Origin: a virus
IMG/VR virus record: IMGVR_UViG_3300046804_001330
Coordinates: 1 to 24,877 of that record
Length of the DNA stretch: 24,877 nucleotides
Direction: 5' to 3' (one strand)
Shown here piece by piece: positions 11,842-24,877 of the stretch (within the stretch, counting starts at the first letter, position 1; every line of letters starts with the position of its first letter). The position numbers were made by a program, and so were the translations under genes. The notes beneath the pieces were generated by a model. The model did not search any database and was not told the DNA's origin. It saw nothing but the letters and a program-made list of their open reading frames with translations.

Positions 11842-12107
11842 GTCCATCTCAATAGAAACGCCGTAAGGAACTCATCCTTGCATAGCATGAGTTCTCCGAA
11901 TGTAGTATTATCAACCCAGTAGCTATCTTCGATATCTTCTCTATAACCACTTTTGCCGAAAGTTTTATAACACCAATCTTGAATCTCTGCACCATCTACT
12001 TCCCCTTTGCCTTTCCAACTGACAGTAGTTATATTGCGTTTGCTACCGTGATAGTGTTCGGTCCAATATCTAAAACTACCTAGCTCTTGTATTTTCTTCT
12101 CACTCAT
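11838..12107 (-). CDS. LRW-tail family protein
   Basis: The 89-residue product (MSEKKIQELGSFRYWTEHYHG...) carries the family's central motif IQDWCYKTFGKSGY and a strand ending in ELMLCKDEFLTAFLLRWT. Trp-Cys-x3-Phe-Gly followed by an aromatic is typical of the array. The start is uncertain: ATG 12107 is preferred, while ATG 12122 would extend it by five residues. Function unknown. Confidence 0.75.
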   Translation of the reverse strand: MSEKKIQELGSFRYWTEHYHGSKRNITTVSWKGKGEVDGAEIQDWCYKTFGKSGYREDIEDSYWVDNTTFGELMLCKDEFLTAFLLRWT

Positions 12108-12345
12108 TTGGCATGTTCCCATATCTTAAAAGAAAGTTAATGTATTTTTCTTCATCATACACAGTTGCACCGTGAATTATCACATGAGTATCAAAGGCAG
12201 CAAAGTCTACTTTTATTCCAAACTCATCTTTACAGTACACATCATAGTGCTGATATTTTTTTGCTAGTTGTGATTTGACCTTTTTCCACTCTCGTGCGGA
12301 TCGTTCAATCATCTCAACTAACTCTGCCGTTGCTTCTAATTTCAT
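12100..12345 (-). CDS. LRW-tail family protein with helical N-terminus
   Basis: The 81-residue product has a charged helix (residues 1-30), then YDVYCKDEFGIKVDFAAF, a variant of the Cys-x3-Phe-Gly motif, and the tail VYDEEKYINFLLRYGNMPNE. The tail extends seven residues past Leu-Arg-Tyr, and the next start is placed within this extension. ATG 12345 overlaps the upstream TGA by 4 nt. Function unknown. Confidence 0.75.
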   Translation of the reverse strand: MKLEATAELVEMIERSAREWKKVKSQLAKKYQHYDVYCKDEFGIKVDFAAFDTHVIIHGATVYDEEKYINFLLRYGNMPNE

Positions 12346-12590
12346 TGCCATTTTAGTACGAACCATTCTAAATCTTTCTTTTCTCTAAACCAAAATCTTG
12401 CTGAGTTAGCATACCATCGTTGACTTGGTTCGAATGCTCCCTTTGATTCACCGTATGTTTCTGTGCACCAGTTCTCCATATGACTCCATGTAATAATACC
12501 ACCCCAATCATCGTCTAAGTTCCAAGTAATAACTTTAGGTTCTACTGTGTAATATCGTGCCCCAAACACACGACCTTCATCTATCTTCAT
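12342..12590 (-). CDS. LRW-tail family protein
   Basis: The 82-residue product shows the full family pattern: MENWCTETYGESKGAF, then FEPSQRWYANSARFWFRE and the tail KKDLEWFVLKWQ. Seven Trp in 82 residues is very high. ATG 12590 makes an ATGA overlap; ATG 12596, two codons earlier, is an alternative. Function unknown. Confidence 0.8.
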   Translation of the reverse strand: MKIDEGRVFGARYYTVEPKVITWNLDDDWGGIITWSHMENWCTETYGESKGAFEPSQRWYANSARFWFREKKDLEWFVLKWQ

Positions 12591-12850
12591 GTCCATCGTA
12601 AAATAAACCACTCAGCATCTTGTTTGTTTTCAAACAAGTAGTCACTGCCCAATCTACGATACTTCCCCTTACAAGTATCACTCAACCAAAATTGAATATC
12701 AACTGCTTGCTCTCCGTTCTTAAAATAAAACTGCACAGGCGTCCAACCGGTTTCAATTAGCATAGAGGACATGATGCCATCATCAATCTCTTTGGCAATT
12801 TGTTTGCCAATCTCATCAAACATTTCTTCTTCTAAAGTTTTTACTGCCAT
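12587..12850 (-). CDS. LRW-tail family protein
   Basis: The 87-residue product has an acidic N-terminal helix (KTLEEEMFDEIGKQIAKEID), a middle strand region, FWLSDTCKGKYRRLGSDYLF and the tail ENKQDAEWFILRWT. ATG 12850 lies inside the AGATGG codons of the preceding gene (10-nt overlap). ATG 12823, with a better AGAAGAAG ribosome site, is a shorter alternative. Function unknown. Confidence 0.78.
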   Translation of the reverse strand: MAVKTLEEEMFDEIGKQIAKEIDDGIMSSMLIETGWTPVQFYFKNGEQAVDIQFWLSDTCKGKYRRLGSDYLFENKQDAEWFILRWT

Positions 12851-13284
12851 CTTAGTTTAAACCACGCTAAATCTTTTTCATTTTTGAAGGCGAAGAATAA
12901 TACATCATGTCCGCCTACATCGTTCATACTGAATTCTTCTATTTCACACCATATCATTGTATCATCATATTCGTTATGAATCAAGCCTCTTTCCCTGATT
13001 ACTCTATGAATATCCCATCTAGATTTGTCCGAACAATTCTTTTCACACCATTCACTTGCTTGTCTTACCCAAGCTACCCAATTTGAGATTCCCGGTGGCA
13101 CACGCTCAAAATAACATAGATATGGATAGCCATGATAATATTGCTTAATCAAGGTAGCAGGATATATCACATCATGGTCATTTTGTAAATTATATTGTTT
13201 CCATGATGTGACTCTGTGCTTCTTTAGAAAGCGTTGATTCTTTTTAAGTCTAATGTAGGCTTTGATTCTTCTAAGTAATTTCAT
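12841..13284 (-). CDS. LRW-tail family protein, long basic member
   Basis: At 147 residues this is the longest member. A basic N-terminal extension (MKLLRRIKAYIRLKKNQRFL) precedes a Tyr-rich region (QYYHGYPYLCYFERV), the motif ASEWCEKNCSDKSRW, and the tail FAFKNEKDLAWFKLRWQ. The basic helix could bind nucleic acid or a membrane surface. Start and stop overlap the neighbours by 4 and 10 nt. Function unknown. Confidence 0.78.
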   Translation of the reverse strand: MKLLRRIKAYIRLKKNQRFLKKHRVTSWKQYNLQNDHDVIYPATLIKQYYHGYPYLCYFERVPPGISNWVAWVRQASEWCEKNCSDKSRWDIHRVIRERGLIHNEYDDTMIWCEIEEFSMNDVGGHDVLFFAFKNEKDLAWFKLRWQ

Positions 13285-13511
13285 TTGTGTTTAAGTAGTA
13301 ACCACGCATACTTACCTTCGTCTAAAATTTCAAAAGTACCATCAATCTTACCATCACGATGGATCCACATTTTTATTCCATATTGTTCTTGTACATACTT
13401 GTCAAATGAATCTGTAAAGCCAGTGTATGACGGTTCATAGTAACCAGTATACTGCTTATCGTATTCTGTTTTAAGAATTCTTAATAAGTGCCAGTAATCA
13501 TACTTGTTCAT
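13281..13511 (-). CDS. LRW-tail family protein, altered tail
   Basis: The 76-residue product is Tyr-rich at the start (YDYWHLLRILKTEYDKQYTGYY). It has FDKYVQEQYGIKMWIHRDG in place of the Trp-Cys motif and the tail EILDEGKYAWLLLKHK, where Leu-Arg-Trp has become Leu-Lys-His. ATGA overlaps lie at both ends. Function unknown. Confidence 0.75.
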   Translation of the reverse strand: MNKYDYWHLLRILKTEYDKQYTGYYEPSYTGFTDSFDKYVQEQYGIKMWIHRDGKIDGTFEILDEGKYAWLLLKHK

Positions 13512-13786
13512 CGGTACTCTTTCATAGTGGTTTCTTCATACTCACCTGCGAATGCGATTCTGAATACTTTAGCAGCTTCACTGTGTTCAAATTGTATGAT
13601 ATCATAGTCTAGTGGATAATCCATTTTGCTGTACACTGAACGCCATTCAACATGAAAACGACTGAATGGACCTTTCTCAGGATATCGTTGTGCCCACTCG
13701 TACATTTCAGTAGTACAAGGTTTTACTTTGAATCTGTATATAAAGACTGGGCGATTGTTTCCTCCGCCACCGTAAAAGTATTCCAT
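13508..13786 (-). CDS. Probable divergent LRW-tail family protein
   Basis: The 92-residue product starts MEYFYGGGGNNRPVF. It has MYEWAQRYPEKGPFSRFHVEW, which matches the aromatic-x3-aromatic-x-Gly core, and IIQFEHSEAAKVFRIAFAG, which matches the strand plus helix of the family tail with Arg-Ile-Ala-Phe for Leu-Arg-Trp. A 13-residue polar extension follows. The TAATG overlap sets the start, with GAGGTTC as ribosome site. Function unknown. Confidence 0.7.
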   Translation of the reverse strand: MEYFYGGGGNNRPVFIYRFKVKPCTTEMYEWAQRYPEKGPFSRFHVEWRSVYSKMDYPLDYDIIQFEHSEAAKVFRIAFAGEYEETTMKEYR

Positions 13787-13995
13787 TATGAGAACCTCAG
13801 CGAAAACCAAGTAGCATCTCTACTATCTTCAAACTCAATAAACTTTTCTGTTAGATAGCCAGGACTATGATAATATTTGCCCTTGCAGTTCTCTTCCAAC
13901 CACTGGTTTACTATGTAATCCTTGTAGCTTACTTGCCACTGTGCTCGGATCCCATCTGTAGTGCGACTGTAAACAACCTTATATAGAGTATTCAT
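13786..13995 (-). CDS. LRW-tail family protein
   Basis: The 69-residue product has a basic strand region (LYKVVYSRTTDGIRAQWQVSY), YIVNQWLEENCKGKYYHSPGY, and the tail IEFEDSRDATWFSLRFS. The Cys sits six residues after the Trp here. ATG 13995 overlaps the upstream TGA by 4 nt. The upstream tail is coded AAA TGG, so no Shine-Dalgarno is present and translation probably depends on coupling. Function unknown. Confidence 0.78.
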   Translation of the reverse strand: MNTLYKVVYSRTTDGIRAQWQVSYKDYIVNQWLEENCKGKYYHSPGYLTEKFIEFEDSRDATWFSLRFS

Positions 13996-14240
13996 GACCA
14001 TTTTAACACAAACCAAGAAAACTTCTTTTCATCAATAACATTGTAACCAACTATCACGTTATGATTTTCTGACAAATGTATTTCTACACCGCATTTAGTT
14101 TCTAGAAAATGCAAGTAAGCATCTTCCTTGGTTTTACCAGTGACGACCTTTGCTTCTGGTGGTAATATGATAGGGTTTTTCAGAAATTCATTCTGCCCTT
14201 GTCTAGCTACTATCGTTTTTACAAGTTCTAAATCCATCAT
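13992..14240 (-). CDS. LRW-tail family protein
   Basis: The 82-residue product has a helical N-terminus, a Pro/Val linker (IILPPEAKVVTGKTKED), AYLHFLETKCGVEIHL as its Cys-Gly core, and the tail VIDEKKFSWFVLKWS. Start ATG 14240 (ATGATG, with 14237 as alternative) follows the perfect ribosome site GAGGTGG coded by the upstream Arg-Trp. Function unknown. Confidence 0.78.
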   Translation of the reverse strand: MMDLELVKTIVARQGQNEFLKNPIILPPEAKVVTGKTKEDAYLHFLETKCGVEIHLSENHNVIVGYNVIDEKKFSWFVLKWS

Positions 14241-14473
14241 TTCCACCTCAATAAAAACCATTCATAATCTTGCTTACGTTTAAAGCCAAAGTATCTACCG
14301 CGGCTTCTCCAGTTAGAACTTTTAAAATTACTGTAACAGAATCTTTCAGCAGGAATTATTGGATGCCAGCTTTGAAATTCAAACTGATGAGGCCAGTATT
14401 TTTCATTAAGTTCTTCCTCAAAATACCATTGTTTTAAATAACTACTAGAAGATAAATTAATTAGTGTAGTCAT
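14237..14473 (-). CDS. LRW-tail family protein
   Basis: The 78-residue product is Trp- and Phe-rich (QWYFEEELNEKYWPHQFEFQSW), with a middle FKSSNWRSRGRYFGFK and the tail KRKQDYEWFLLRWK. It lacks the central Cys. ATG 14473 overlaps the TGA of the coiled-coil gene by 4 nt. Function unknown. Confidence 0.78.
   Translation of the reverse strand: MTTLINLSSSSYLKQWYFEEELNEKYWPHQFEFQSWHPIIPAERFCYSNFKSSNWRSRGRYFGFKRKQDYEWFLLRWK
14243..14249 (-). promoter_or_regulatory. Ribosome site GAGGTGG inside upstream Leu-Arg-Trp codons
   Basis: TTG AGG TGG of the gene at 14237-14473 supplies GAGGTGG 2 nt before the ATG at 14240 and 5 nt before the ATG at 14237. Confidence 0.7.
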
Positions 14474-14907
14474 CGGTTCAACTCAGCCCACATGTTAAGT
14501 TTACTTTTCATAATCTTTTCATTCTCTTGTGCTTTATCTCTGTCTCTGTAAGCCTCGTCACGACACCACTCTATTGTCTTAATCTCTTGCTTTATCTCAG
14601 CGAAAACTTCCATTACAGTTCTTGCTTGTAGGTTCTTAATTTCATTGTTAGCATCAGATAGTTTGTCATTGAGATATTCAACTTCATTTTCAAGGTGGTT
14701 GATATATTGTCCGGGGTGATAGTTAGCACCATTAACTTCACTTCTAAATGTACACCATGTATCATCCATACCAACATCAACTAATCCATCAATGATAGAA
14801 CCTTGTACTCGTTGCATGTGCGTAGCAAGTCTAACTCGTATAGGGTCATCATCATGCTTGATGATGTAGTCAATTAATTCATTATCTGACAAGTGATTCA
14901 AATCCAT
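14470..14907 (-). CDS. Coiled-coil protein within the array
   Basis: This 145-residue protein is not a family member. It starts MDLNHLSDNELIDYIIKHDDD, and residues about 68-140 form a continuous charged helix (HLENEVEYLNDKLSDANNEI, then MEVFAEIKQEIKTIEWC) likely to be a coiled coil. I know no specific function for it. It is translated from TAATG after the 56-residue member and hands over to the next member through ATGA, so it is fully built into the operon. Confidence 0.75.
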   Translation of the reverse strand: MDLNHLSDNELIDYIIKHDDDPIRVRLATHMQRVQGSIIDGLVDVGMDDTWCTFRSEVNGANYHPGQYINHLENEVEYLNDKLSDANNEIKNLQARTVMEVFAEIKQEIKTIEWCRDEAYRDRDKAQENEKIMKSKLNMWAELNR

Positions 14908-15077
14908 TATCTATACCTCAATTTCCACCATACATATAATTTAGGATGAATCCAAAACAATCCAGGACGCATTTCAACCCATAGTGATTCGTCATTAGAT
15001 TCAATCCACTGTTCCATTTCTGGACCTGTCATTATTTCAGTCCAGTCTAAGTAATCAGGGAAGTCTCTTGGATTCAT
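14907..15077 (-). CDS. Very small LRW-tail family protein (56 residues)
   Basis: This short gene is easily missed. ATG 15077 follows GAGGTGG in the upstream Arg-Trp codons and overlaps the upstream TGA by 4 nt. The product reads MNPRDFPDYLDWTEIM, then EMEQWIESNDESLWVEMRPG and the tail FWIHPKLYVWWKLRYR. It keeps the strand plus helix ending with Arg-Tyr and has six Trp in 56 residues. Its TAA shares one base with the next ATG, and GAGGTA acts as that gene's ribosome site. It looks like a minimal form of the family. Confidence 0.8.
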   Translation of the reverse strand: MNPRDFPDYLDWTEIMTGPEMEQWIESNDESLWVEMRPGLFWIHPKLYVWWKLRYR

Positions 15078-15259
15078 AACCACCTCAACTTAAACCATAC
15101 ATAGTCTTGTTCGTCTGTGAACCAAAATTCTTCATTCATGTAATCCCAACGACCAATGGTATTTTCTCTACACCAATTAGATATTTCAGCCCAGTCACCT
15201 TTCCACCACTTATCGGTGCGTTTATACGGGACTTTAAATTTAGCATCTTTTCTGTTCAT
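15074..15259 (-). CDS. LRW-tail family protein, compact member
   Basis: The 61-residue product shows the whole family plan in little space: MNRKDAKFKVPYKRTDKWW, the core ISNWCRENTIGRWDYM, and the strand and helix FWFTDEQDYVWFKLRWL. ATG 15259 sits inside TTATGA after GAGGTGG. This is a good reference member for defining the domain. Function unknown. Confidence 0.83.
   Translation of the reverse strand: MNRKDAKFKVPYKRTDKWWKGDWAEISNWCRENTIGRWDYMNEEFWFTDEQDYVWFKLRWL
15080..15086 (-). promoter_or_regulatory. Ribosome site GAGGTGG inside upstream Leu-Arg-Trp codons
   Basis: TTG AGG TGG TTA TGA of the gene at 15074-15259 holds both GAGGTGG and the ATG (15077) of the 56-residue gene. Confidence 0.75.
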
Positions 15260-15492
15260 AACCACCTCAACAAGAACCATTCAGCATCTTTTTTGTCACG
15301 AAACTGAAAGTCACCCGTAAAGTATCTTGTGTTGCCGTACCAACGAGGATTGTCGTATTTTTCGTTTCTATGACCGAATGTTTTCATACACCATGTATAC
15401 GCCTTAGACGAGCTCCAATCTTTAGTTGTGCGCCATTGAACGTCAATATGATATGGTCTTTTGCCTGGCACGTATTTAATTTCAATTTTCAC
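15256..15492 (-). CDS. LRW-tail family protein
   Basis: The 78-residue product starts from GTG 15492 (MKIEIKYVPGKRPYHIDVQW). It carries AYTWCMKTFGHRNEKYDNPRWY, the clearest copy of the Trp-Cys-x3-Phe-Gly core, and the tail FQFRDKKDAEWFLLRWL. GTG lies in TCGTGA, overlapping the upstream stop, with GAGGTGG as ribosome site. Function unknown. Confidence 0.83.
   Translation of the reverse strand: MKIEIKYVPGKRPYHIDVQWRTTKDWSSSKAYTWCMKTFGHRNEKYDNPRWYGNTRYFTGDFQFRDKKDAEWFLLRWL
15262..15268 (-). promoter_or_regulatory. Ribosome site GAGGTGG inside upstream Leu-Arg-Trp codons
   Basis: TTG AGG TGG TTA TGA at the end of the gene at 15256-15492 supplies the ribosome site for ATG 15259. Confidence 0.75.
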
Positions 15493-15749
15493 GACCACCT
15501 CAACACAAAAAATGTATGACTTTCTTCTTTGTCCCAACGCAAGTACCAACCTTGTGTTTGAGTTTGAATCAATTTACCGCCTAAGGGTTTAAGTTCATAG
15601 TTAGCAACAGTAATAGGAGCCCAACCATTCAATCTAGCAGTAACAGAACAAGTGTTCCAAAAGTTGTCAAAGTACTTGGGCCAAGGGTGAGCCCACAGTC
15701 TGCCTACAGGAACGATGAATCTTTCTCTAACAAAATAAGGTTCTCTCAT
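15489..15749 (-). CDS. LRW-tail family protein
   Basis: The 86-residue product starts MREPYFVRERFIVPVGRLW and includes Pro/Trp-rich WAHPWPKYFDNFWNTC, GWYLRWDKEESHTFFVLRWS at the end, and nine aromatic residues in the first 40. LRW occurs twice near the C-terminus. ATG 15749 overlaps the TGA of the previous member and follows GAGGTGG. Function unknown. Confidence 0.78.
   Translation of the reverse strand: MREPYFVRERFIVPVGRLWAHPWPKYFDNFWNTCSVTARLNGWAPITVANYELKPLGGKLIQTQTQGWYLRWDKEESHTFFVLRWS
15495..15501 (-). promoter_or_regulatory. Ribosome site GAGGTGG inside upstream Leu-Arg-Trp codons
   Basis: TTG AGG TGG TCG TGA at the end of the gene at 15489-15749 supplies the ribosome site for the GTG at 15492. 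Confidence 0.72.
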
Positions 15750-15982
15750 AGCCACCTCAAACTAAAATGAATAGCATCTTCTTCTTTGTGAAAGTAGAAG
15801 TCCATGTAATCTTCTGTTGGATGTGTTGTATAGTATGTACCAGGAACTCCATAGTGTTCCATAGCCCAGATACAGGCCTCGTCCCAATCACTAATAGTAT
15901 CGCCCTTCTTCCAGGGTATGCGTACTCTAGTACCCCGCCAGTTTGAGGGTTTCTCTGATTTGTTGTTTAAGATTTTCGTCAC
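15746..15982 (-). CDS. LRW-tail family protein, first of the array
   Basis: The 78-residue product (MTKILNNKSEKPSNWRGTRV...) has the core ACIWAMEHYGVPGTYY with Ala in place of Cys, and the tail FYFHKEEDAIHFSLRWL. The start is taken as GTG 15982, which overlaps the zinc-finger gene by 56 nt in another frame; no strong ribosome site is seen, so the true start may lie further in. It is the first family member to be translated. Confidence 0.7.
   Translation of the reverse strand: MTKILNNKSEKPSNWRGTRVRIPWKKGDTISDWDEACIWAMEHYGVPGTYYTTHPTEDYMDFYFHKEEDAIHFSLRWL
15752..15758 (-). promoter_or_regulatory. Ribosome site GAGGTGG inside upstream Leu-Arg-Trp codons
   Basis: TTG AGG TGG CTA TGA at the end of the gene at 15746-15982 supplies the ribosome site for ATG 15749. 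Confidence 0.75.
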
Positions 15983-16625
15983 GGTGAAACTTCAATGCCC
16001 ATTGTTCTGGATTTATATAATCATGTATCATTGTAACTTGACTTGGATTTAATGTCTCTAGTAATTGGACACCACTGTCGCTACAATACAACATCCATGG
16101 ACTTATTTTACCCAAAGTTATACCGTGACATATACGATTTGGGTTAATGTACCGAAATACGTCATTGGGCTGAATACCTTCGATTTCGGCAAGCGTAGTG
16201 CAATATTCTACTCCTCGATAGATTGCGTCAAACGCATCTTCGATCCTAAGATACTCACACAAGAACCTAGTGTATGTTGTATCACTATCCCAGTTATCTA
16301 TTTTGATTTGATTGGTCAACAACCATTCAACGTATCTAGGAATGTTAAGAACTTTTGAATCTACACAATAACTTCCGAACTTTGCGAATGCAATATAATA
16401 AGGGCTATTGATGAATTCTTCATATGTTTTGTTCTTTGTCTTACTCATACTATGTTTAGAGTAAAACTGAACCCATGACTGAAATCCGATTCTATTACCT
16501 GCTTGATCCTTATTCAGCCAGCGTGATTTTTTCTCACATATGTGGCTAACTAGTGTTCGTTCTCTAGCAAACTCTTTCTTGCAAAACTCGCAGGAATGTT
16601 TATTCGTTGCCAAGTTCTCTTTCAT
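15927..16625 (-). CDS. Zinc-finger protein of unknown function
   Basis: The product of about 232 residues begins MKENLATNKHSCEFCKKEF and has one zinc finger: Cys-x2-Cys, then after 12 residues His-x-Cys (HSCEFCKKEFARERTLVSHIC). The rest is a helical, aromatic-rich domain with no motif I recognise, ending in a charged tail (HRDENLKQQIRETLKLAGY). The finger suggests DNA or protein binding. Starts at 16643, 16640 or 16625 are possible and none has a good ribosome site; 16625 gives the smallest overlap with the clamp-loader gene. It may help regulate or support replication, judging only from its neighbours. Confidence 0.75.
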   Translation of the reverse strand: MKENLATNKHSCEFCKKEFARERTLVSHICEKKSRWLNKDQAGNRIGFQSWVQFYSKHSMSKTKNKTYEEFINSPYYIAFAKFGSYCVDSKVLNIPRYVEWLLTNQIKIDNWDSDTTYTRFLCEYLRIEDAFDAIYRGVEYCTTLAEIEGIQPNDVFRYINPNRICHGITLGKISPWMLYCSDSGVQLLETLNPSQVTMIHDYINPEQWALKFHRDENLKQQIRETLKLAGY

Positions 16626-17196
16626 AGTTTCTAATGTCATCATCGGTTACTGTTTGTGCTAATACGTCAATGTCTGATAATTTTAAATCGGGGAATCTCT
16701 TTGCAAGATATGCTTTTTTCTTATGTTCTTCAACAAATGCTTCACTAATCATTTGAATAGATTCACTATCAGCCTTAGAATATATTTTAGTATAGTATTC
16801 TTTAACGTCTTTAAGTTTGGGGGTTTCTTTTAGTGTTGCAACTTTACTAGAAAGATGCGGGATCCATTGATGGAACTTTTTACCTAAACCAGGACTAGCC
16901 GCACATAACATCATCCATTGTAGTTTAGGATGTTTCTGAACATGCTCGTTGAACAAAAACTTGTTGGCAGCATATTCTGTACTCATAACATAATAACCCT
17001 GAACACCACCGTTATCTTTAACACAGCTCATCCAGTGCGTCATCATATAAGGCACAAACTTCTTTTGTTGTTCTTCTGTCATCTTATCTAAGTAGTTGTA
17101 ATCTTTACGATCCAACGCCGATAATGCCTCGAACAAGTCAAAGTCTTGTTTTTCTAACTTTTCATCTTTTGGTGTTGCTGGTTTCTTCGTTGCCAT
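16600..17196 (-). CDS. 62: Probable clamp-loader small subunit, T4 gp62-like
   Basis: The 198-residue product has a Lys/Glu-rich start, then a helical domain: KKFVPYMMTHWMSCVK, FLFNEHVQKHPKLQWMMLCA and ASPGLGKKFHQWIPHL. The last part resembles T4 gp62 (LMAAVPRGKRYGKWAKLVE), which bridges the ATPase subunits of the loader that puts the sliding clamp on DNA. gp62 has no ATP site of its own, and none is seen here. The partner gp44 gene is not adjacent, unlike in T4. ATG 17196 overlaps the previous stop as TAATG. Confidence 0.65.
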   Translation of the reverse strand: MATKKPATPKDEKLEKQDFDLFEALSALDRKDYNYLDKMTEEQQKKFVPYMMTHWMSCVKDNGGVQGYYVMSTEYAANKFLFNEHVQKHPKLQWMMLCAASPGLGKKFHQWIPHLSSKVATLKETPKLKDVKEYYTKIYSKADSESIQMISEAFVEEHKKKAYLAKRFPDLKLSDIDVLAQTVTDDDIRNYERELGNE

Positions 17197-17696
17197 TAGA
17201 ATGCCTGATTATAATCTACAATTTCACAGTTACGACTAATCTCTTTAACAAAGTAAACGCATCTAGGTTTCTCTGTATCATCGATTGGTATGCACAAGAA
17301 CTGTCCGTTCTTTAGTCTCGGGGCGTACCAAGTTACATCATGGTAAATATCTACAATTTCAATATCTAAAAAGCTAGGTCTGAATGAACTTAATGGATTA
17401 AACTCAAATGCTTTGAACCCTCTATCATTGATGCTTGTCAATGGTAATGTTTCTAAGTCACCCATTTCAGGTTCACCAATCAATATCTGCCAATCTACTG
17501 GCATCTTGATAGTCTTGTCTCCCACTCTAAGCACTAGCGCTGGTGAGTTAAAGCTCTCTAAGAATATTAAAGGAATGTAATGATAGTCTACGTTCTGTGT
17601 ATTTGAATTGTCTAAAATAGCAAATCTTAAATCATCTACTTCTTCCGGTAATGTCTCTAAATTGTAGTATTGGTTATCTAATGTAAGTATTCTCAT
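17196..17696 (-). CDS. Conserved phage protein of unknown function
   Basis: This 166-residue protein starts MRILTLDNQYYNLETLPEE. It appears to be a single beta-rich domain with VLRVGDKTIKMPVDWQILIG, SFLDIEIVDIYHDVTWYAP and KNGQFLCIPIDD, ending ISRNCEIVDYNQAF. I cannot give a function. Its place between UvsW and the gp62-like gene points to DNA replication or its control. The gap to UvsW is 12 nt, the only real gap in this operon. Confidence 0.65.
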   Translation of the reverse strand: MRILTLDNQYYNLETLPEEVDDLRFAILDNSNTQNVDYHYIPLIFLESFNSPALVLRVGDKTIKMPVDWQILIGEPEMGDLETLPLTSINDRGFKAFEFNPLSSFRPSFLDIEIVDIYHDVTWYAPRLKNGQFLCIPIDDTEKPRCVYFVKEISRNCEIVDYNQAF

Positions 17697-17708
17697 AGTT
17701 ATATTCTA

Positions 17709-19196
17709 TCACTTATAGTTAAGTTTTTCAACATCAAACGGGTAGTTGGCTTCTTTATAGAAACTCTTTCGTTGTGTTAGGTGACGTTTAGCAAATTTAC
17801 ATGAACTGGTAATGTCCCAAATCTGCACAAAGTCTTTGTCCTCTGCTTTACGGATGCCTCGACCTATTGACTGAATAACTCTAACAAACGATTTGCCAGG
17901 CTCCAAAAGAACCAAGTTAAAGATACGAGGAATATTAATTCCAACAGCGGCGACCCCGTAAGTCGCAACAATAACCTTGTTAGTAGCAGTCGCAACTTCG
18001 TCATATTGTTCCTTTCGTTCTACTAAGTCAGTTCCACCTGATACAAAACTAACTTCGTAATCTAATCTACCTTTAGTGAATGCTTCACTAAGTCTAGTTT
18101 GAATCTCTCTTCCGGCAGCTACTCTATCAACTAAAATAAGTGTGTTACCACTCTCTTTAACTTTCTCAAGTAATTGACAGATGGTAGTAAGTCGTTCATC
18201 ATTTTCTAAAAGATATTTCAATTCACTTTGATAGTTACTAAACTCTACTTTATCTTGTAGTTGAATAATGTTCACGTGACATTGTGCCAATACGCCCTTG
18301 TCTTGTAATTCTTTTGCGGATAGTTTATTGATAACAGGTCCCAATGATACCATGATTGCTTTATAATCAAACTCTGACTTTGGAATAGTACCAGTCAGTC
18401 CCCAACGAATCGGAATATGAGCCATTACACCTGATAATAGTTCTTTCAACACATCTGCTTTAGCCATATGAACTTCGTCAACAATAACACAGCATACACC
18501 TTCTAAGAATTCCCCTATGGTAATTTCTGCTTCATCTGCTTTTGTTTTCTTTAGCATGTTGCCGAGACTTTGCCAGGTACAAATTGTATGTGTCTTACCA
18601 TAATCTTTACGGTCACCAAAGTATACACCTACATCTAATCCAACGTTAATATAATCACGCTCGGTTTGAGTAACCAAGTCCTTGTTAGGGACAATAACGA
18701 TACTACGACCATAACCCTCAACACTATAACTCAATGCCGCAGTCATAATTGTCTTGCCTGCTCCTGTAGCAACTTCCTGTAATGACTGTGGGTTCTTCAA
18801 AAAACTGTTAATGATATCTAGTTGATAATCACGAATCATAACTGGCTTGCCTGCCATCGGGTGCTTATCAGGCCAGACGTGTGCGGCGAAACTATCTTCT
18901 TTGAATTCAGTAAAGTTGAATGTAGTCGAATACTCTCGTAAATCTTCTAAATCAATATCATATCCTGCTTCTGTTAGCAGTGGAAGAATATCGGGTAGCA
19001 AGTTTACATAAGTAGAACCTGCTAGACTGAAATAGCTAATCTTACCATTCCAACGCCCAAGACGGACACTTGGTAGATACCTTGCACCTGGCTTCTCATA
19101 TTCAAACATCTTCATTAATGTTTTTCTGTCGCCAAGTTCTAATCCTTCAATCTTAACATTGACTTCATCTTTAATTATTAGTTTACATTCTCTCAT
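17709..19196 (-). CDS. uvsW: UvsW-like SF2 helicase
   Basis: This 495-residue superfamily 2 helicase remodels recombination intermediates and unwinds R-loops and Holliday junctions, thereby switching replication from origins to recombination in T4. The motifs are all present: VATGAGKT (motif I, 142-149), VDEVH (II, 239-243), GLTGT (III, 266-270), ILVDR and VATYGVAAVGINIP (IV-V region) and QSIGRGIRK (VI, 442-450). The N-terminal 110 residues match the UvsW accessory domain (RYLPSVRLGRWNGKISYF). ATG 19196 overlaps the previous stop by ATGA. Confidence 0.95.
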   Translation of the reverse strand: MRECKLIIKDEVNVKIEGLELGDRKTLMKMFEYEKPGARYLPSVRLGRWNGKISYFSLAGSTYVNLLPDILPLLTEAGYDIDLEDLREYSTTFNFTEFKEDSFAAHVWPDKHPMAGKPVMIRDYQLDIINSFLKNPQSLQEVATGAGKTIMTAALSYSVEGYGRSIVIVPNKDLVTQTERDYINVGLDVGVYFGDRKDYGKTHTICTWQSLGNMLKKTKADEAEITIGEFLEGVCCVIVDEVHMAKADVLKELLSGVMAHIPIRWGLTGTIPKSEFDYKAIMVSLGPVINKLSAKELQDKGVLAQCHVNIIQLQDKVEFSNYQSELKYLLENDERLTTICQLLEKVKESGNTLILVDRVAAGREIQTRLSEAFTKGRLDYEVSFVSGGTDLVERKEQYDEVATATNKVIVATYGVAAVGINIPRIFNLVLLEPGKSFVRVIQSIGRGIRKAEDKDFVQIWDITSSCKFAKRHLTQRKSFYKEANYPFDVEKLNYK

Positions 19197-20257
19197 TTTA
19201 CATTGATTGGTTTATTGTTGCCCAAGTGTATTGTTTTTGCAATCTTACTCTTAGGGTGAAAGTTACCCGAACTCCATAGTGCAGTATTGACTAAGATGGG
19301 AAATTCATACTTAGACAAATCGATATCCTCGTGTACATTCTTTGCAATATAGCAATGGTCGATATTACTCTCTGTTAATAACTTCTTTAATTCTGTCTGA
19401 TGTGTTGCGTTGACGTTTTTAAAAACCTCTTGAACAACTACAAAATCGCATCCGATATGCTTAACAAAGCGCACTAGTTTTTCGAGGTCTCCTATATGAA
19501 AGACCACTCTATCACTAACTGCAAAGTCAACGATTTCTACTGCCTCAGGATCATTGTTTATAGATTCAATTGAATCGTATATAACTTGTTCATCAATATC
19601 GATACCTGCGGACTTGATCCTTGCCAGTGAAGAAGGACTTATGTTAAGTGGTATGTTTGCTGTTGCTTCGTCTAGGTATCTGTTGGTAGCCGCTATTACA
19701 TAATTGCCGTTGACTTTCTTGTATATCGGGTCCCATGTTAAACCTTCATACTCAGCAAATCTATTTATAATTTCAGTGGTGTTGGTGCAATATCTAACCA
19801 CTTGGTAGTGCTTATCTAGGCAATCAATAAAATGCTTTAACACTACTTCGCAGAGAGGACCACTCCAAATTTTAGTTTCTTTTTCCCATGTAAGATACAC
19901 CGACGTATTTTTTATGTCTTTGACAAAATCTTTCTTATATGGACTTCTAACTTCGATTGTGTTATCTTTGATTGTACAAAAGGCATCAGTGTATTCTGGT
20001 AGACTTTCGATGGGTTCAACACCCCAGGGTAGTTTTATCATTAGGTCTGCATCAAGTTCTTTTTTACGCAATTGCCTTGCATAGCGCAAAATAATTTTGT
20101 TTAACAACTCAGCTTGGTTGCTGGTTACGGGATTTTTATCTTTATAATGACTTGATTGAAGGTTAGTTAGGAACTTCTTATCGTAAGTCCCTAGACTTAT
20201 ATTCTGCATCAAGTAATATACTAATTGTTCCTTTGTCGTTGGTTTCACTTTTGACAT
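19193..20257 (-). CDS. Unknown protein coupled to UvsW
   Basis: The 354-residue product opens the long operon. An N-terminal helical part (to about residue 70) is followed by VEVRSPYKKDFVKDIKNTS-like and YLTWEKETKIWSGPL segments, which recall the small beta domains (HARP-like) found beside SF2 helicases. The C-terminal part alternates strands and helices (FVVVQEVFKNV; FPILVNTALWSSG). I see no complete Walker motifs, so it is not a helicase itself. It may help UvsW, with which it overlaps by 4 nt. ATG 20257 lies at the predicted transcription start, so the mRNA is probably leaderless. Confidence 0.65.
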   Translation of the reverse strand: MSKVKPTTKEQLVYYLMQNISLGTYDKKFLTNLQSSHYKDKNPVTSNQAELLNKIILRYARQLRKKELDADLMIKLPWGVEPIESLPEYTDAFCTIKDNTIEVRSPYKKDFVKDIKNTSVYLTWEKETKIWSGPLCEVVLKHFIDCLDKHYQVVRYCTNTTEIINRFAEYEGLTWDPIYKKVNGNYVIAATNRYLDEATANIPLNISPSSLARIKSAGIDIDEQVIYDSIESINNDPEAVEIVDFAVSDRVVFHIGDLEKLVRFVKHIGCDFVVVQEVFKNVNATHQTELKKLLTESNIDHCYIAKNVHEDIDLSKYEFPILVNTALWSSGNFHPKSKIAKTIHLGNNKPINVK

Positions 20258-20263
20258 TCTTCT

Positions 20264-20292
20264 ATTATAATACTTATGATTGATGAAGTCAA
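20264..20292 (-). promoter_or_regulatory. Near-consensus sigma70 promoter of the 12-kb operon
   Basis: TTGACT (20292-20287), 17 nt, then TATAAT (20269-20264) on the minus strand. The transcript is expected to begin about 7 nt downstream, at 20257, exactly the A of the first ATG. Confidence 0.88.
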
Positions 20293-20302
20293 TGCTAGAG
20301 GC

Positions 20303-20325
20303 AAAAAAAGGGGACCTAAGTCCCC
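20303..20325 (-). terminator. Strong intrinsic terminator
   Basis: On the minus strand GGGGAC pairs with GTCCCC around TTAG and is followed by seven T. It ends transcription after the gene at 20341 and insulates it from the operon promoter 11 nt further on. Confidence 0.92.
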
Positions 20326-20340
20326 AGAAAGCGTGTGAAA

Positions 20341-20574
20341 TTAATGATATATTGAACCTAGTACTGTCACACCTCGGTTAATCTTGTTGCAGTTTCCGCA
20401 ATGACGATATTGGTACAACGCTTTACGCTTAGTAGCTAGGAATACATTCTCATGTACGCCTTGTTGTGGGTCGCCCCACATCGTCCAATTGTGTATTCCT
20501 AAACGACACCAAACACTTTTCATAAGAGGGACCTCATCCTTTAGAACCCTGAATGTATTTTCTTTTTCATTCAT
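20341..20574 (-). CDS. Small zinc-binding-like protein with CRLGIHNWT motif
   Basis: The 77-residue product has SVWCRLGIHNWTMWG at residues about 20-34 and YRHCGNCNKINRG near the C-terminus. Cys, His and the Cys-x2-Cys pair could bind zinc. It is a paralogue of the protein at 9640-9846. It is the last gene before the terminator and overlaps the membrane-protein gene by ATGA. Function unknown. Confidence 0.75.
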   Translation of the reverse strand: MNEKENTFRVLKDEVPLMKSVWCRLGIHNWTMWGDPQQGVHENVFLATKRKALYQYRHCGNCNKINRGVTVLGSIYH

Positions 20575-20915
20575 CGCTTCAATTCTTCAAATACTCGTTC
20601 ACGTTCAGCCAAGAAACATTCAAATGCTGCCTTGACTACATTGTAAAAGAATGTAAACACTACAAGCCAGAAACCGGATGCTCCGATAAGTTGGACTGTC
20701 TCTTTATCTTCAATTAACCAAGCAGATAACAATAATGTCACTAGCAAGGCAATCAATGAGAGGATAATAAATCCGCAGATAGCAAAGATTGAATCGGGAG
20801 CACCCTTCTTCAATTCATACCTGAAGTTTTCTAGGGCAATAAAAGTGCCACCGAAAATCTTCATAAAGCACCATTTTACAAATGCTAGGTACATTTTAAT
20901 ATTCATCTTGTTCAT
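20571..20915 (-). CDS. Two-pass membrane protein of unknown function
   Basis: The product of 114 residues has two hydrophobic spans, at about residues 42-68 (IFAICGFIILSLIALLVTLL) and 75-95 (LIGASGFWLVVFTFFYNVV). They are flanked by a basic N-terminal part and a charged C-terminal helix (FLAERERVFEELKR). It should sit in the inner membrane. Small phage membrane proteins often act in lysis control, superinfection exclusion or host takeover, but nothing here tells which. Starts at 20915, 20906 and 20894 are possible. Confidence 0.75.
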   Translation of the reverse strand: MNKMNIKMYLAFVKWCFMKIFGGTFIALENFRYELKKGAPDSIFAICGFIILSLIALLVTLLLSAWLIEDKETVQLIGASGFWLVVFTFFYNVVKAAFECFLAERERVFEELKR

Positions 20916-21240
20916 CCCTAAAGACCTTAGTATGGTCGGTAATGGTGTAACCTCTCAAACTTAGCTTGCTACGTGTAGGAATATCACCACGTACATATTC
21001 ATACTTGATGAACATACCCAACTCGGCATCAATCTCTTTGACTGTTTTCCCATGCCAGGGTTTACCAAGAATGTATTTAACTTTAACCCATTTTACATTG
21101 TTTTCGGGTGCACCTGTATACTGATTTTTGAAACTGTAGTAGTCACTATACCCACCACTCATTGAGGTTATAGATAGAGGTCTACACCAGTCTTCTGGCT
21201 CAACTACATCATCGGCTTCAAGTAGTTGTAGACTTATCAT
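20896..21240 (-). CDS. Unknown small protein
   Basis: The 114-residue product from ATG 21240 (MISLQLLEADDVVEPEDWC...) contains YSDYYSFKNQYTG, VKWVKVKYILGKPWHGKT and a basic strand region (RSKLSLRGYTITDHTKVF). I recognise no family. It overlaps the gene upstream by 23 nt and the membrane-protein gene by 20 nt. A TTG three codons earlier is an alternative start. Confidence 0.65.
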   Translation of the reverse strand: MISLQLLEADDVVEPEDWCRPLSITSMSGGYSDYYSFKNQYTGAPENNVKWVKVKYILGKPWHGKTVKEIDAELGMFIKYEYVRGDIPTRSKLSLRGYTITDHTKVFRDEQDEY

Positions 21241-21445
21241 TTTCTTCAATCCCTGCGTTCGGTGTAAAGTACTCTACAGCTTGTGCGAATCCTCGCAAAC
21301 CATCAACCGACTGACAATCAGCAACGATAGTGCCTTTACTGTTATGAATGTAAAGACCATTTGTGAGGACACTTACTTTGTATCCATAGTTACCTAGTTG
21401 TCGCTCCCAACTTTGAAAGCTACGAATCAATTCTGAATCTTTCAT
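21218..21445 (-). CDS. Unknown small protein
   Basis: The 75-residue product (MKDSELIRSFQSWERQL...) has a helix, two or three strands (YKVSVLTNGLYIHNSKGTIVA), a second helix, and a Thr-rich end. Nothing identifies its role. Its start lies one base after the stop of the ATPase gene, so it is probably co-translated. Confidence 0.65.
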   Translation of the reverse strand: MKDSELIRSFQSWERQLGNYGYKVSVLTNGLYIHNSKGTIVADCQSVDGLRGFAQAVEYFTPNAGIEENDKSTTT

Positions 21446-21446
21446 A

Positions 21447-22454
21447 TTATACTCGCTTCATACAAGTTGCTTTTGCCAACTCACGCCAGTTGCCGGAAAT
21501 CTTAACGAGGTCAGCAATCTTCAAACACATACGCAAGGACACTTCACGCAATTTTGAATGATTAGCCTCAATGAACGACATAACTTCGTCAGTTTGTTCC
21601 TGAGTAAAGTCATAGTCAGCAAACAAGCCACCGTCAGCATCTCGGTGAACTTGCTTGATACGCAACATTTTGTCACGCTCAGTATCCACAGTCAAGTCCA
21701 AGAAGTGACTACGTGATTGGAGAGCATCCAAGTGAGGAGCCATCTTGCTTGCTTTCTTTGTGTCGAAAGTTTTGTTTGTAATAAAGATGATTGATCCGTT
21801 AAAGTTGAAAGTGTTAGGCACACCTTCGTCACGCAACAAACGACTATCTTTGTTCCAACTGATACGGCGAGTCTTGCCTGAATCGAGGGCACCTTTCAAC
21901 ACGTTAACAGCGTCTTGGTCATCCCAAATATCACAGTCATCAAACACCAACACATTCTTAGCGTCACTGAATTTGTACAACTTAGCGAACAAGCCGATAC
22001 CTGACATAGCACCTTTGACAATCTCAAAGCGAGGGCGCTTGCCTGAGATTTTATCAAACATAGATGCTTTTTCCATTTGTGTGATAACACCGTGTGACTT
22101 ACCGATACCTGCAGGACCTGTGACAATCATAGCACGAATGTCACCTGCGATACATGCTTTGGACATTTCGTCAAGCACTGCGAATCGTGAGGCAATACGA
22201 TCCATTGCTTCTGTTTCAGTTTCAGTGACTTTTGTTTCAACAACAGGGGTATCACCTGACACGAATTCTAGACATTCGTGATTGTCTACATTAATACGCA
22301 ATTCGTCACTACGACCTGGGAACTGACCCTCATTACGAACTGTCACGAATCCACCTTTGGCACCTAACTGATAACCTTTGACAAGTGTGAAAACTTGATT
22401 AGAAACTGGAGTGTTACGATATGTACCTGAAGTGATGCGAACTGTGCTAGTCAT
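21447..22454 (-). CDS. AAA-type P-loop ATPase
   Basis: This 335-residue protein has about 90 N-terminal residues of strand-rich sequence (TYRNTPVSNQVFTLVKGYQL), then an ATPase core. Walker A is VTGPAGIGKS (111-120), Walker B NVLVFDDCD (167-175) and sensor 1 SIIFITN (221-227). An arginine lies in the region ALQSRSHFLDL, and a helical lid follows. It resembles phage AAA ATPases that remodel protein or DNA complexes. It lacks the features of a gp44 clamp loader, so I would not name it as one. A TTGACA/TATAAT promoter and the ribosome site AAAGG precede ATG 22454. Confidence 0.85.
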   Translation of the reverse strand: MTSTVRITSGTYRNTPVSNQVFTLVKGYQLGAKGGFVTVRNEGQFPGRSDELRINVDNHECLEFVSGDTPVVETKVTETETEAMDRIASRFAVLDEMSKACIAGDIRAMIVTGPAGIGKSHGVITQMEKASMFDKISGKRPRFEIVKGAMSGIGLFAKLYKFSDAKNVLVFDDCDIWDDQDAVNVLKGALDSGKTRRISWNKDSRLLRDEGVPNTFNFNGSIIFITNKTFDTKKASKMAPHLDALQSRSHFLDLTVDTERDKMLRIKQVHRDADGGLFADYDFTQEQTDEVMSFIEANHSKLREVSLRMCLKIADLVKISGNWRELAKATCMKRV

Positions 22455-22480
22455 GTGAACCTTTCGTATGTAAAGATGTT

Positions 22481-22509
22481 ATTATAGTTGATTTTGGGTT
22501 TATTGTCAA
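22481..22509 (-). promoter_or_regulatory. Consensus sigma70 promoter of the ATPase gene
   Basis: TTGACA (22509-22504), 17 nt, TATAAT (22486-22481) on the minus strand: both boxes are perfect. The -35 box contains the TGA stop of the gene at 22506-22739. Confidence 0.92.
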
Positions 22510-22739
22510 GCCTTTTGTGCTTGCTTGGATTCCATCATTTCAGACAAAATGAACTTGGCAATGTTCATCATTTTGCGGCTGTCGTCATTACGATCCATAA
22601 CCAAGAGTTCCTGAGCATCAGAAAGGACGCTCATCACAACCATTTCGATTCCGCACAATTCTGCGGTAATACTTTTGATGTACTGTTCACGGATATCTTG
22701 CTCAGTGATACCATAGCACTTTGTTTCAAACTCGGTCAT
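22506..22739 (-). CDS. Unknown small helical protein
   Basis: The 77-residue product (MTEFETKCYGITEQDIREQY...) looks helical and Met-rich (AELCGIEMVVMSVLSDAQEL; MMNIAKFILSEMMESKQ). I cannot assign a function. ATG 22739 is set by the strong ribosome site AAGGAG five bases upstream. It has its own consensus promoter and ends with GCT TGA, where the TGA belongs to the next promoter. Confidence 0.75.
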   Translation of the reverse strand: MTEFETKCYGITEQDIREQYIKSITAELCGIEMVVMSVLSDAQELLVMDRNDDSRKMMNIAKFILSEMMESKQAQKA

Positions 22740-22771
22740 GTGAACTCCTTCAATCAATCAAATAAGACTAT

Positions 22772-22800
22772 ATTATATACCCAAAGTGATTTATTGTCAA
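22772..22800 (-). promoter_or_regulatory. Consensus sigma70 promoter
   Basis: TTGACA (22800-22795), 17 nt, TATAAT (22777-22772) on the minus strand. The -35 box contains the TGA stop of the gene at 22797-22994. Confidence 0.92.
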
Positions 22801-22994
22801 GCCATTTTGTTGTTTATTTCACGGGCTTTCATTATGAATTCACACATAGCACTATTGTATTCACCTTCAAAATTGAATACTTTTGTATTACTTCCGGACT
22901 TGTACTCAATTTGATATTGATAGTCGCCGGTTCTCCACAAGACAATTTTAGTATCGCCTATTTGCTGGCTTTCAATGTATTGTATTTGAGACAT
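22797..22994 (-). CDS. Unknown small protein
   Basis: The 65-residue product (MSQIQYIESQQIGDTKIVLW...) shows strands (YQYQIEYKSGSNTKVFNF) followed by a helix (EFIMKAREINNKMA). ATG 22994 follows AAAGGG at good spacing. It has its own promoter and ends with GCT TGA inside the next promoter's -35 box. Function unknown. Confidence 0.75.
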   Translation of the reverse strand: MSQIQYIESQQIGDTKIVLWRTGDYQYQIEYKSGSNTKVFNFEGEYNSAMCEFIMKAREINNKMA

Positions 22995-23018
22995 GATTAC
23001 CCTTTCAAACAAACAATG

Positions 23019-23047
23019 AGTATACTACCAAAATGATTTATTGTCAA
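23019..23047 (-). promoter_or_regulatory. Sigma70 promoter TTGACA / TATACT
   Basis: TTGACA (23047-23042), 17 nt, TATACT (23024-23019) on the minus strand. The -35 box contains the TGA stop of the gene at 23044. Confidence 0.85.
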
Positions 23048-23886
23048 GCCATTTCTAGCTTCCAACCGTTAACCCCAAAGTATTCAAATTCATCATTGTA
23101 CTTACGGATAAAGCTGCCTGTAATTTTTAATACTTTTTCATTATTAAAAAGATGTTCCCAAATATGACCTAAAACATTGTCTTTTGACAGAGTAATGACC
23201 ACTGCGGCATTTAGTTTATCATCAACCATCCAATACTGGTTAGTTTCCATGCGTGAAGTTTTGCGTGTGATTTTTTTGAGTGGTGTTAGATTAGCAGTAG
23301 TACCCAATGATTTAGGAACTCCATTCATATTCATTCTTCTGAAACCCTGGTCAAATGTTACTTGCGACTTTATTTCGTCTAATTGCAAATCATAGTCATA
23401 GAACGTGGGTAGATAACAAATCATTCCCAAATCTTTTTCTTTGAAATGAATGCCATCACTATGGATGAATGTATTCATATCAGTTCTAAATTGTGTCATT
23501 GATAATTTGTCATTCAATTTACCAAACATAATTTTTTTACTGTAATAATCTCTGATTGCCTGCGAACGTAATTGATCCTCAGTAGTAACAGATTCTACTA
23601 CTTTCTTGTCTAGTATTTTGTGACCCCATTCACTATTCGCCCGCATACGTTGAAGTGTACAACTCAATGTCAACACATCAATGGGTGTTTCATACATTTC
23701 AAATTTCTTTATACTTGAGTGATGTTGGTTATCTAAATTAAGTGTAATATGGTCTAATGCGTTCCAAGCTGATTGCCCGGACGCCCCTGACAATGTGATT
23801 GTATTATGTGAATTGTTAAAAAGTGTGGACATATTTTGTCTTCCTGTTAATTGAACGAAACCTCTGCCTTTATATCGATATGACAT
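23044..23886 (-). CDS. Unknown protein with GH19-lysozyme-like N-terminal peptide
   Basis: The frame gives 280 residues from ATG 23886. The first 19, MSYRYKGRGFVQLTGRQNM, look like the GH19 chitinase/lysozyme motif (YRGRGFIQLTGRxNY). Nothing after it resembles that enzyme: the rest (STLFNNSHNTITLSGASGQS...) is a mixed helix-strand protein with no motif I know, ending NGWKLEMA. ATG 23886 lies at the predicted transcription start, so it would be leaderless. ATG 23832 has the ribosome site AGGAAG at 7-nt spacing and would give 262 residues without the GH19-like part. The latter may be the main start. Confidence 0.7.
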   Translation of the reverse strand: MSYRYKGRGFVQLTGRQNMSTLFNNSHNTITLSGASGQSAWNALDHITLNLDNQHHSSIKKFEMYETPIDVLTLSCTLQRMRANSEWGHKILDKKVVESVTTEDQLRSQAIRDYYSKKIMFGKLNDKLSMTQFRTDMNTFIHSDGIHFKEKDLGMICYLPTFYDYDLQLDEIKSQVTFDQGFRRMNMNGVPKSLGTTANLTPLKKITRKTSRMETNQYWMVDDKLNAAVVITLSKDNVLGHIWEHLFNNEKVLKITGSFIRKYNDEFEYFGVNGWKLEMA

Positions 23887-23891
23887 GCTAT

Positions 23892-23921
23892 ATTATACAA
23901 AAAACCTCGTACTGTTGTCAA
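23892..23921 (-). promoter_or_regulatory. Sigma70 promoter built into a terminator
   Basis: TTGACA (23921-23916), 18 nt, TATAAT (23897-23892) on the minus strand. The -35 box lies in the terminator loop, and the spacer covers the second stem arm and the T-tract. The predicted start is at 23885-23886, next to the ATG. Confidence 0.8.
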
Positions 23922-23928
23922 TACGAGG
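23899..23928 (-). terminator. Intrinsic terminator overlapping a promoter
   Basis: On the minus strand CCTCGTA (23928-23922) pairs with TACGAGG (23911-23905) around a 10-nt loop and is followed by TTTTTT. It ends the unit of the UvsY-like gene. Confidence 0.88.
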
Positions 23929-23934
23929 TTTATG

Positions 23935-24393
23935 TTAAAGGGTAATATCTTCCATTCCAGCTGTCCGTAATCGAACTATGTGACCCATTTGCCATTGTTT
24001 AGCATCGAGTCCTTTCATCACACCTAACCATTTATTCCTTAATAAGGCAACTTCATTGATTAGTGTCTCATAGTCAATCACTTCTTGTTCACCGTCTACA
24101 TACTTCTCGGCATCACGTGAAGTCAATGCTCTGTTATATGCTTCCAGATACTTTTGGAAGTGCTTCCTACGAATCTTACGTAGTTGAATATTAAGATGGT
24201 TCAATACTGCTTCAATTTCTTGTAGCTGATTGAAACGATGCTCAGTAACACCGGGCAATGCCGCAATGTTCTTTTCTACGTTACCCCAAATCTTTACATC
24301 CTGTTTGGCAGAGTTTAGTTCTGCTTCGTAGTGTGCTACGAAATCGGGTAGTCTACTGATATCGTTACTGACTATTGTTAACCAATTTGCCAT
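23935..24393 (-). CDS. Probable UvsY-like recombination mediator
   Basis: This 152-residue helical protein begins MANWLTIVSNDISRLPDFV. It has YEAELNSAKQDVKIWG, a long basic helix (NHLNIQLRKIRRKHFQKYLE), ALTSRDAEKYVDGE, and a C-terminal helix LRNKWLGVMKGLDAKQWQMG followed by IVRLRTAG. Size, helix pattern and the last segment resemble UvsY, which loads UvsX recombinase onto ssDNA coated with gp32. The match to T4 UvsY is weak by eye, so this is a probable call. Its ATG follows directly after the upstream TAA, and a terminator closes the unit. Confidence 0.6.
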   Translation of the reverse strand: MANWLTIVSNDISRLPDFVAHYEAELNSAKQDVKIWGNVEKNIAALPGVTEHRFNQLQEIEAVLNHLNIQLRKIRRKHFQKYLEAYNRALTSRDAEKYVDGEQEVIDYETLINEVALLRNKWLGVMKGLDAKQWQMGHIVRLRTAGMEDITL

Positions 24394-24642
24394 TTAGTCC
24401 CATTCTTCGTCTTGGTCTTCGTCTTCGTATTCTTCGTATTCTTCTTCTTGGAAATGTTCGTCAGCGTAATCTTTCAATGCCTTAGAGATATCTTTATCTC
24501 TAAATGCTTCTTTGATTTCTTCAACTTCATGGTTGTTTTCAATCAAATATGTGACTAACGATTCTGCCGCATCACTGCGGTCATTGAAATCGATATGCTC
24601 ACGCAACAATTCCCAAACTTCTGATACTGTATCTAAACTCAT
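24394..24642 (-). CDS. Small protein with acidic C-terminal tail
   Basis: The 82-residue product (MSLDTVSEVWELLREHIDFND...) has a helical first part (HEVEEIKEAFRDKDISKALKD) and a very acidic tail of about 17 residues of Glu, Asp and Tyr ending DEEWD. The tail is coded by an imperfect tandem repeat (ttcgtattc units at 24420-24450). Acidic tails can mimic DNA or bind basic proteins, but the role here is unknown. ATG 24642 has GGAG 9 nt upstream. Confidence 0.7.
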   Translation of the reverse strand: MSLDTVSEVWELLREHIDFNDRSDAAESLVTYLIENNHEVEEIKEAFRDKDISKALKDYADEHFQEEEYEEYEDEDQDEEWD

Positions 24643-24646
24643 AGTA

Positions 24647-24820
24647 TTACTCTCCAAGTTTAGCTTTTACTTGCCTAACTAATTCTTTGCCTAAGTCAGC
24701 ATAGAATTGTTCTTCTGTAATGCCAATTGGTTGATTTGCCGCATCTACTGCGATAGTACCTTGGAACTGTGCTTTAGTACCGAATTGGTCTTCAACCAAT
24801 TCAACGTTAGTGATAATCAT
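24647..24820 (-). CDS. Very small unknown protein (57 residues)
   Basis: ATG 24820 overlaps the upstream TGA by ATGA, and GGAG lies 9 nt before it. The product reads MIITNVELVEDQFGTKAQFQ, then GTIAVDAANQPIGITEEQF and YADLGKELVRQVKAKLGE. This is a beta hairpin plus a helix. I know no function. Confidence 0.72.
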   Translation of the reverse strand: MIITNVELVEDQFGTKAQFQGTIAVDAANQPIGITEEQFYADLGKELVRQVKAKLGE

Positions 24821-24877
24821 TCTGTAGTGTCTCCTTCATCAGTGGTTTCTACAGTATTACTTATCTCAGTCTTGTCA
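24817..24877 (-). CDS. C-terminal end of an upstream gene (partial)
   Basis: The frame is open from the window edge to a TGA at 24817-24819 and gives the last 19 residues, DKTEISNTVETTDEGDTTE. This is an acidic, Thr-rich tail. It overlaps the next gene by ATGA, and its GAAGGAGAC codons act as that gene's ribosome site. Confidence 0.6.
   Translation of the reverse strand, partial: DKTEISNTVETTDEGDTTE

Follow-up and report, generated by a model that had tools for sequence, protein, structure and literature searches.

Small cassettes called PeSL (promoter-early stem-loop) cassettes were reportedly described in T4-like phages by Arbiol et al. in 2010 (RB49/phi1) and by Comeau et al. in 2014 (PST, nt-1). 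A PeSL cassette consists of a stem-loop terminator and a strong sigma-70-like promoter, a definition drawn in part from papers citing the original descriptions. RB49 is one of the founding PeSL phages, and KVP40 is a relative of nt-1. Promoters and unit ends also meet at frd/ampC of Escherichia coli, where a unit's promoter overlaps the end of the unit before it and precedes the terminator/attenuator. The promoter of the N4 virion polymerase is a small hairpin in single-stranded DNA, without sigma-70 hexamers, and transcription starts just downstream of it. In single-molecule studies, RNA polymerase often stays on the DNA after intrinsic termination and can restart at a nearby promoter (PMC6978380; PMC6978322), with downstream re-initiation of 37-55% in vitro (PMC6978380).

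We analyzed 48 bases of T4-like phage DNA in which a predicted terminator hairpin and a consensus promoter share bases. The window, that is, the whole stretch of DNA analyzed, is an entire virus record of 24,877 bp and a linear fragment. We judge, with a probability of roughly 0.75, that the element is a nested (KVP40-like) terminator-promoter of the PeSL type that would end the transcript of a uvsY-like gene and start a probably leaderless mRNA of the next gene.

Anatomy and setting of the element

On the minus strand, the element immediately follows the stop codon of the uvsY-like gene and reads (5' to 3') AAACCTCGTA-TTGACAACAG-TACGAGGTTTTTTG-TATAAT-ATAGC-ATG. The 5' stem arm AAACCTCGTA (23931-23922) is followed by a -35 box, TTGACA (23916..23921), by ACAG (23915-23912), by the 3' stem arm TACGAGGTTT (23911-23902) and by TTTG (23901-23898). 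A -10 box, TATAAT (23892..23897), comes next, then ATAGC (23891-23887) and the ATG of a 280-aa gene (23884..23886); both boxes were identified by a consensus scan. The hairpin (23902..23931), a predicted terminator based on the sequence, the scan, folding and conservation in at least 19 versions, has 10 pairs between AAACCTCGTA and TACGAGGTTT; further in, TTG of the -35 box pairs with CAG, which adds three pairs and leaves ACAA as the loop. Features of an intrinsic terminator are present: a 13-pair stem with 5 G-C pairs that begins 4 nt after the uvsY stop, and a T6 tract (23899..23904) that overlaps the end of the 3' arm.

The promoter (23921-23892) matches the sigma-70 consensus at 12 of 12 positions and shares bases with the hairpin (23931-23902), such that the 3' arm and T-tract of the hairpin are also the promoter spacer. 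The original prediction had described a stem enclosing TTGACA, a T-tract in the spacer and TATAAT; sequence reading and the consensus scan placed each of these at the predicted position, and the spacer measured exactly 18 nt. The stem itself was there as predicted but had been drawn too short. With 5 nt between the -10 box and the ATG, the A of the ATG comes sixth after the box, and a transcript made from this promoter would therefore begin at the start codon or next to it. This distance is among the shortest usual for a start site, a point against the proposed reading.

The upstream gene (23935..24393, minus strand) encodes a UvsY-like recombination mediator of 152 aa (phrog_231, E 5.7e-15), and its stop codon is 4 nt before the hairpin. 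The downstream gene (23044..23886, minus strand), an ORF call that has relatives, encodes the 280-aa protein, which had no PHROG match and no Pfam match above the cut-off. Its start, MSYRYKGRGFVQLTGRQN (23829-23886, minus strand), resembles a motif of GH19 chitinases/lysozymes, and relatives have similar starts; a GH19-type domain was not found by Pfam. The gene content of the window is T4-like (UvsY, a DNA helicase, a DnaB-like helicase and a primase). Judged by the helicase protein, the nearest isolated relatives are large phages, e.g., PA5oct, Atu_ph07 and Phosso, at 46-54% identity. BLASTN of the element region against isolated phages gave no match. Elsewhere in the window, 10757-15982 (minus strand) contains about 15 small ORFs, mostly ending in WF.LRW, which make up an expanded small-protein family; three that were tested had no Pfam match above the cut-off.

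The hairpin RNA has a minimum free energy of -17.3 kcal/mol (z = -6.5 relative to dinucleotide shuffles). In a scan of 10,000-24,877, its 13-pair stem was the longest among 10 terminator-like sites, and three promoter-like sites, this one included, matched at 12/12. Perfect promoters averaged 0.04 in 100 dinucleotide-shuffled windows, compared to the three observed. We defined a composite as a promoter with no more than 2 mismatches whose -35 box is enclosed by a hairpin of score at least 11. By this definition there was one composite in the window and a mean of 0.02 in the same 100 shuffled windows. It is hardly credible that a terminator and a promoter have overlapped here by chance. Both signals are common in phages and the intergenic space is short, but only 0.02 such overlaps are expected per window, the arrangement is conserved in at least 19 versions, and it recurs in other phages far above controls.

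Near-identical promoters of the form GGCTTGACAATAAA(T/C)C... are located at 22509-22481, 22800-22772 and 23047-23019 (minus strand), and in these TTGACA overlaps the TGA stop of the preceding gene. The motif TTGACAATAAATC..TTTGGGTATATAAT of these three stop-overlapping promoters recurs many times in related contigs.

Conservation at the uvsY junction

The original prediction suggested a search for the same combined element in related phages, and that search was positive. We gathered relatives, from fragmentary genomes, using both flanking proteins and sequence patterns. Because sets selected by a pattern fix the letters that were searched for, we searched separately for TTGCAA and CCTCAT variants, and loci selected by protein were read directly. 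There were at least 19 distinct versions of the element at uvsY ends in related viral contigs. The hairpin was kept in all 19 versions listed, with energies from -13.5 to -17.0 kcal/mol. Among these 19, the -35 box was TTGACA or TTGCAA, and the -10 box was TATAAT, TATCAT or TATTAT. Loop length varied by 1-2 nt among the listed versions, and despite this the spacing between the -35 and -10 boxes was 17-18 nt in every one.

The stem is maintained along with this spacing. All of the scored stem cells paired (174/174), and sliding the 3' side by 1-3 columns reduced pairing to 30-58%. A G-C pair was replaced by A-U through a double change in version L413 and in L072/L416, and promoter spacing was kept. 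Covariation amounts to this one pair in two sequences, since 7 of the 10 stem pairs never vary. The T-tract is 4-6 T in length and is interrupted in L072/L416 (TTTCC) and in L413 (TTTTC).

These data bear on whether one of the two signals might be idle. It is quite unlikely that the element is only a terminator, one that ends the uvsY transcript next to an inactive match to the -35 and -10 boxes. Four of the listed versions do have TTGCAA, which matches the -35 consensus at 4 of 6 positions, and several have TATCAT or TATTAT as the -10 box. Against this, the window has a 12/12 match, a perfect promoter is expected by chance only 0.04 times per window, and the spacing of 17-18 nt is kept in all versions listed. 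That the element is only a promoter, with uvsY transcription reading through and the hairpin serving RNA stability or nothing, is very unlikely. The T-tract is short in some versions, and phage polymerases can pass terminators late in infection, as reported for terminator t97 of a staphylococcal phage (PMC7698491). On the other hand, the stability of the hairpin and its T-tract are typical of intrinsic terminators, and the hairpin was kept through compensatory change.

The position of the start codon is also conserved. Of the 12 listed versions that have an ATG close by, 11 (the window plus 10 relatives) had exactly 5 nt between the -10 box and the ATG; the twelfth, L032, has ATGs at 1 nt and at 5 nt. 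After the ATG, L028 and L286 differ mostly at third codon positions, as judged by eye, and this supports translation from that ATG. In L294 and the L021 group, a 5' leader precedes the gene instead.

The nested element is present once in the window, and in relatives it was always between uvsY and the next gene. Other relatives of uvsY do not have the element, and in these uvsY often runs straight into the same downstream gene. On a tree of UvsY proteins the element has a scattered distribution that needs at least 3 changes, but branch support is weak, with 59 of the 116 branches open. Because of this weak support the tree favors neither one gain nor several.

The same architecture in unrelated phages

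We found the same arrangement, with different stems, in other phages. IMG/VR was scanned with the pattern TTGACA-N9-12-TTTTT-N0-2-TATAAT, giving 125 distinct sites with enough flanking sequence among the matches listed. Eight of these 125 had a hairpin score of at least 13 around the -35 box. When upstream flanks were permuted among the sites, the mean was 0.16 and the maximum 2. Two of the eight best sites listed, L163 and L262, are near-copies. In several of the eight the -35 box is the loop, e.g., GAAACCCC-TTGACAA-AAGGGGTTTC. In bacterial and archaeal genomes the same scan gave 116 listed sites, of which 2 had such a hairpin, compared to 0.15 by permutation.

Isolated phages have such elements as well. 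In the Pseudomonas phage PA5oct, at 186478 between gp199 and gp198, the sequence is GGGCAC-TTGACAA-GTGCCC-TTTTTTT-GCCA-TATAAT. Vibrio phage KVP40 and Escherichia phage 121Q have multiple copies of AAAGGGTTGAC-N-GTCAGCCCTTT hairpins with a -10 box 17-18 nt after TTGAC(A/T); the 121Q copies at 109279, 110561 and 112729 are just after gp216, gp219 and gp222, respectively, each before the next gene. Across IMG/VR, 72 of the 109 listed sites with KVP40-type hairpins had a -10 box at 16-18 nt, and the two control spacing sets together had 11. Like the element in the window, those in PA5oct, KVP40 and 121Q have the -35 box within a hairpin, a T-rich tract in the spacer, the -10 box 17-18 nt downstream of the -35 box, and a location between same-strand genes. 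Their stem sequences are unrelated to that of the window, and the hairpins use the -35 box differently: most of TTGAC pairs with GTCA in KVP40 and 121Q, TTGACAA is the loop region in PA5oct, and in the window TTG pairs and ACAA loops out.

An inverted repeat around a -35 box might instead be an operator that binds a dimeric regulator, with the T-run being simply an AT-rich spacer. The nearly invariant stem (7 of 10 pairs) is more conserved than a terminator stem needs to be and is consistent with such a site. In addition, some relatives have inverted repeats, ACCCAAA..TTTGGGT, around a -35 box (L120:7861, L112:2634, L473:5800). Those repeats are possibly operators, and because they are without a T-tract they were left out of the terminator count. 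For the element itself we consider an operator unlikely: the T-tract is at the right place, the site is directly after a stop codon, loop changes of 1-2 nt would alter the spacing of half-sites, and the arrangement recurs with entirely different stems in PA5oct, KVP40, 121Q and other viral contigs. The recurrence of the nested form with unrelated stems argues that selection acts on geometry.

Proposed function and comparison with known systems

Based on the arrangement of its letters, the element would work as follows. In RNA transcribed from uvsY, a hairpin of 10-13 bp and the U-tract would end the transcript near 23899-23901. The same letters in duplex DNA would provide a consensus sigma-70 promoter, with TTGACA in the loop region, the 18-nt spacer and TATAAT. 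Host sigma-70 polymerase would initiate about 13-15 bp beyond the point of termination, at the ATG of the 280-aa gene or next to it, and the product would be a leaderless or nearly leaderless mRNA, presumably translated as such. In this way the 280-aa gene would be uncoupled from the uvsY transcript and would gain, within minimal space, a host-polymerase promoter of its own.

The proposal that one element ends one unit and starts the next was part of the original prediction. The punctuation of two same-strand genes is well supported by the position after a stop codon, by the same junction in at least 19 versions, by the compensatory change that keeps spacing, and by the examples of unrelated sequence; termination and initiation themselves are predicted steps. 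The two would be mutually exclusive while polymerase covers the site, and competition between arriving and initiating RNA polymerase, also raised in the original prediction, may plausibly occur. The further suggestion that a stem in the DNA might affect sigma binding found no support: a single DNA strand of the element was able to fold in computation, and nothing indicates extrusion in duplex DNA.

It is possible that the two events are coupled. Direct hand-over of polymerase could occur at the element because polymerase stays on DNA and restarts nearby (PMC6978380; PMC6978322), and the promoter start would be merely 13-15 bp past the point of termination. Polymerase that had released the upstream RNA would then re-initiate at the nested promoter, a relay that would have evolved repeatedly with unrelated stems. 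We regard such a relay as doubtful. Recycling after termination was shown on separate, engineered units, whereas the element in the window is nested. If there is a relay, expression of the downstream gene would depend on upstream transcription, yet a separate leaderless mRNA would be made. Nested elements are ready templates for testing direct passage of a terminated polymerase to an overlapping promoter. More generally, they would represent a compression of transcription signals by phages, in which a single hairpin both closes one unit and opens the next, and annotation that treats promoters and terminators separately would enter the site as two features with no link between them.

The element resembles the promoter at frd/ampC in that it overlaps the end of the preceding unit, and differs in that the -35 box is inside the terminator hairpin. 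It does not correspond to a folded-DNA hairpin promoter of the N4 type, since it has full sigma-70 hexamers and its -10 box is outside the hairpin.

The closest match is to PeSL cassettes. Like these, the element is small, lies between T4-like phage genes of the same strand, and combines a stem-loop terminator (predicted here) with a strong sigma-70-like promoter. It does not have the tandem order of RB49. In most RB49 composites the -35 box is at least 13 bp downstream of the hairpin; in the window it is inside. We rejected RB49 as a model for the element, as its composites are mostly tandem; none in the composite scan had the -35 box inside. With up to 3 mismatches allowed, composites were absent from T4, T5, SPO1 and RB49, and a looser, terminator-first count gave three in T5, one in SPO1 and one in RB49. 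One RB49 site (L279 3174-3201, minus strand) has TTGACA-16-TATAAT with the -10 box, not the -35 box, in a hairpin, AAGGGAGA..TCTCCCTT. The window also has a tandem pair, at 20325-20257 (minus strand), in which a terminator, GGGGACTTAGGTCCCC-T7, is followed by TTGACT-17-TATAAT and an ATG 6 nt after the -10 box; this RB49-like arrangement is probably a second leaderless start.

The gene shuffling associated with PeSL cassettes was not seen for the element in these genome fragments; it is single-copy in the window and keeps the same two neighbors. This analysis contributes a tally of nested elements across phages, together with the conserved spacing of 5 nt in front of the start codon. KVP40 carries nested copies like that of the window, and tandem order thus defines the RB49 type and not the whole PeSL class. 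Nesting and the probably leaderless start are particular features of this element within the PeSL kind.
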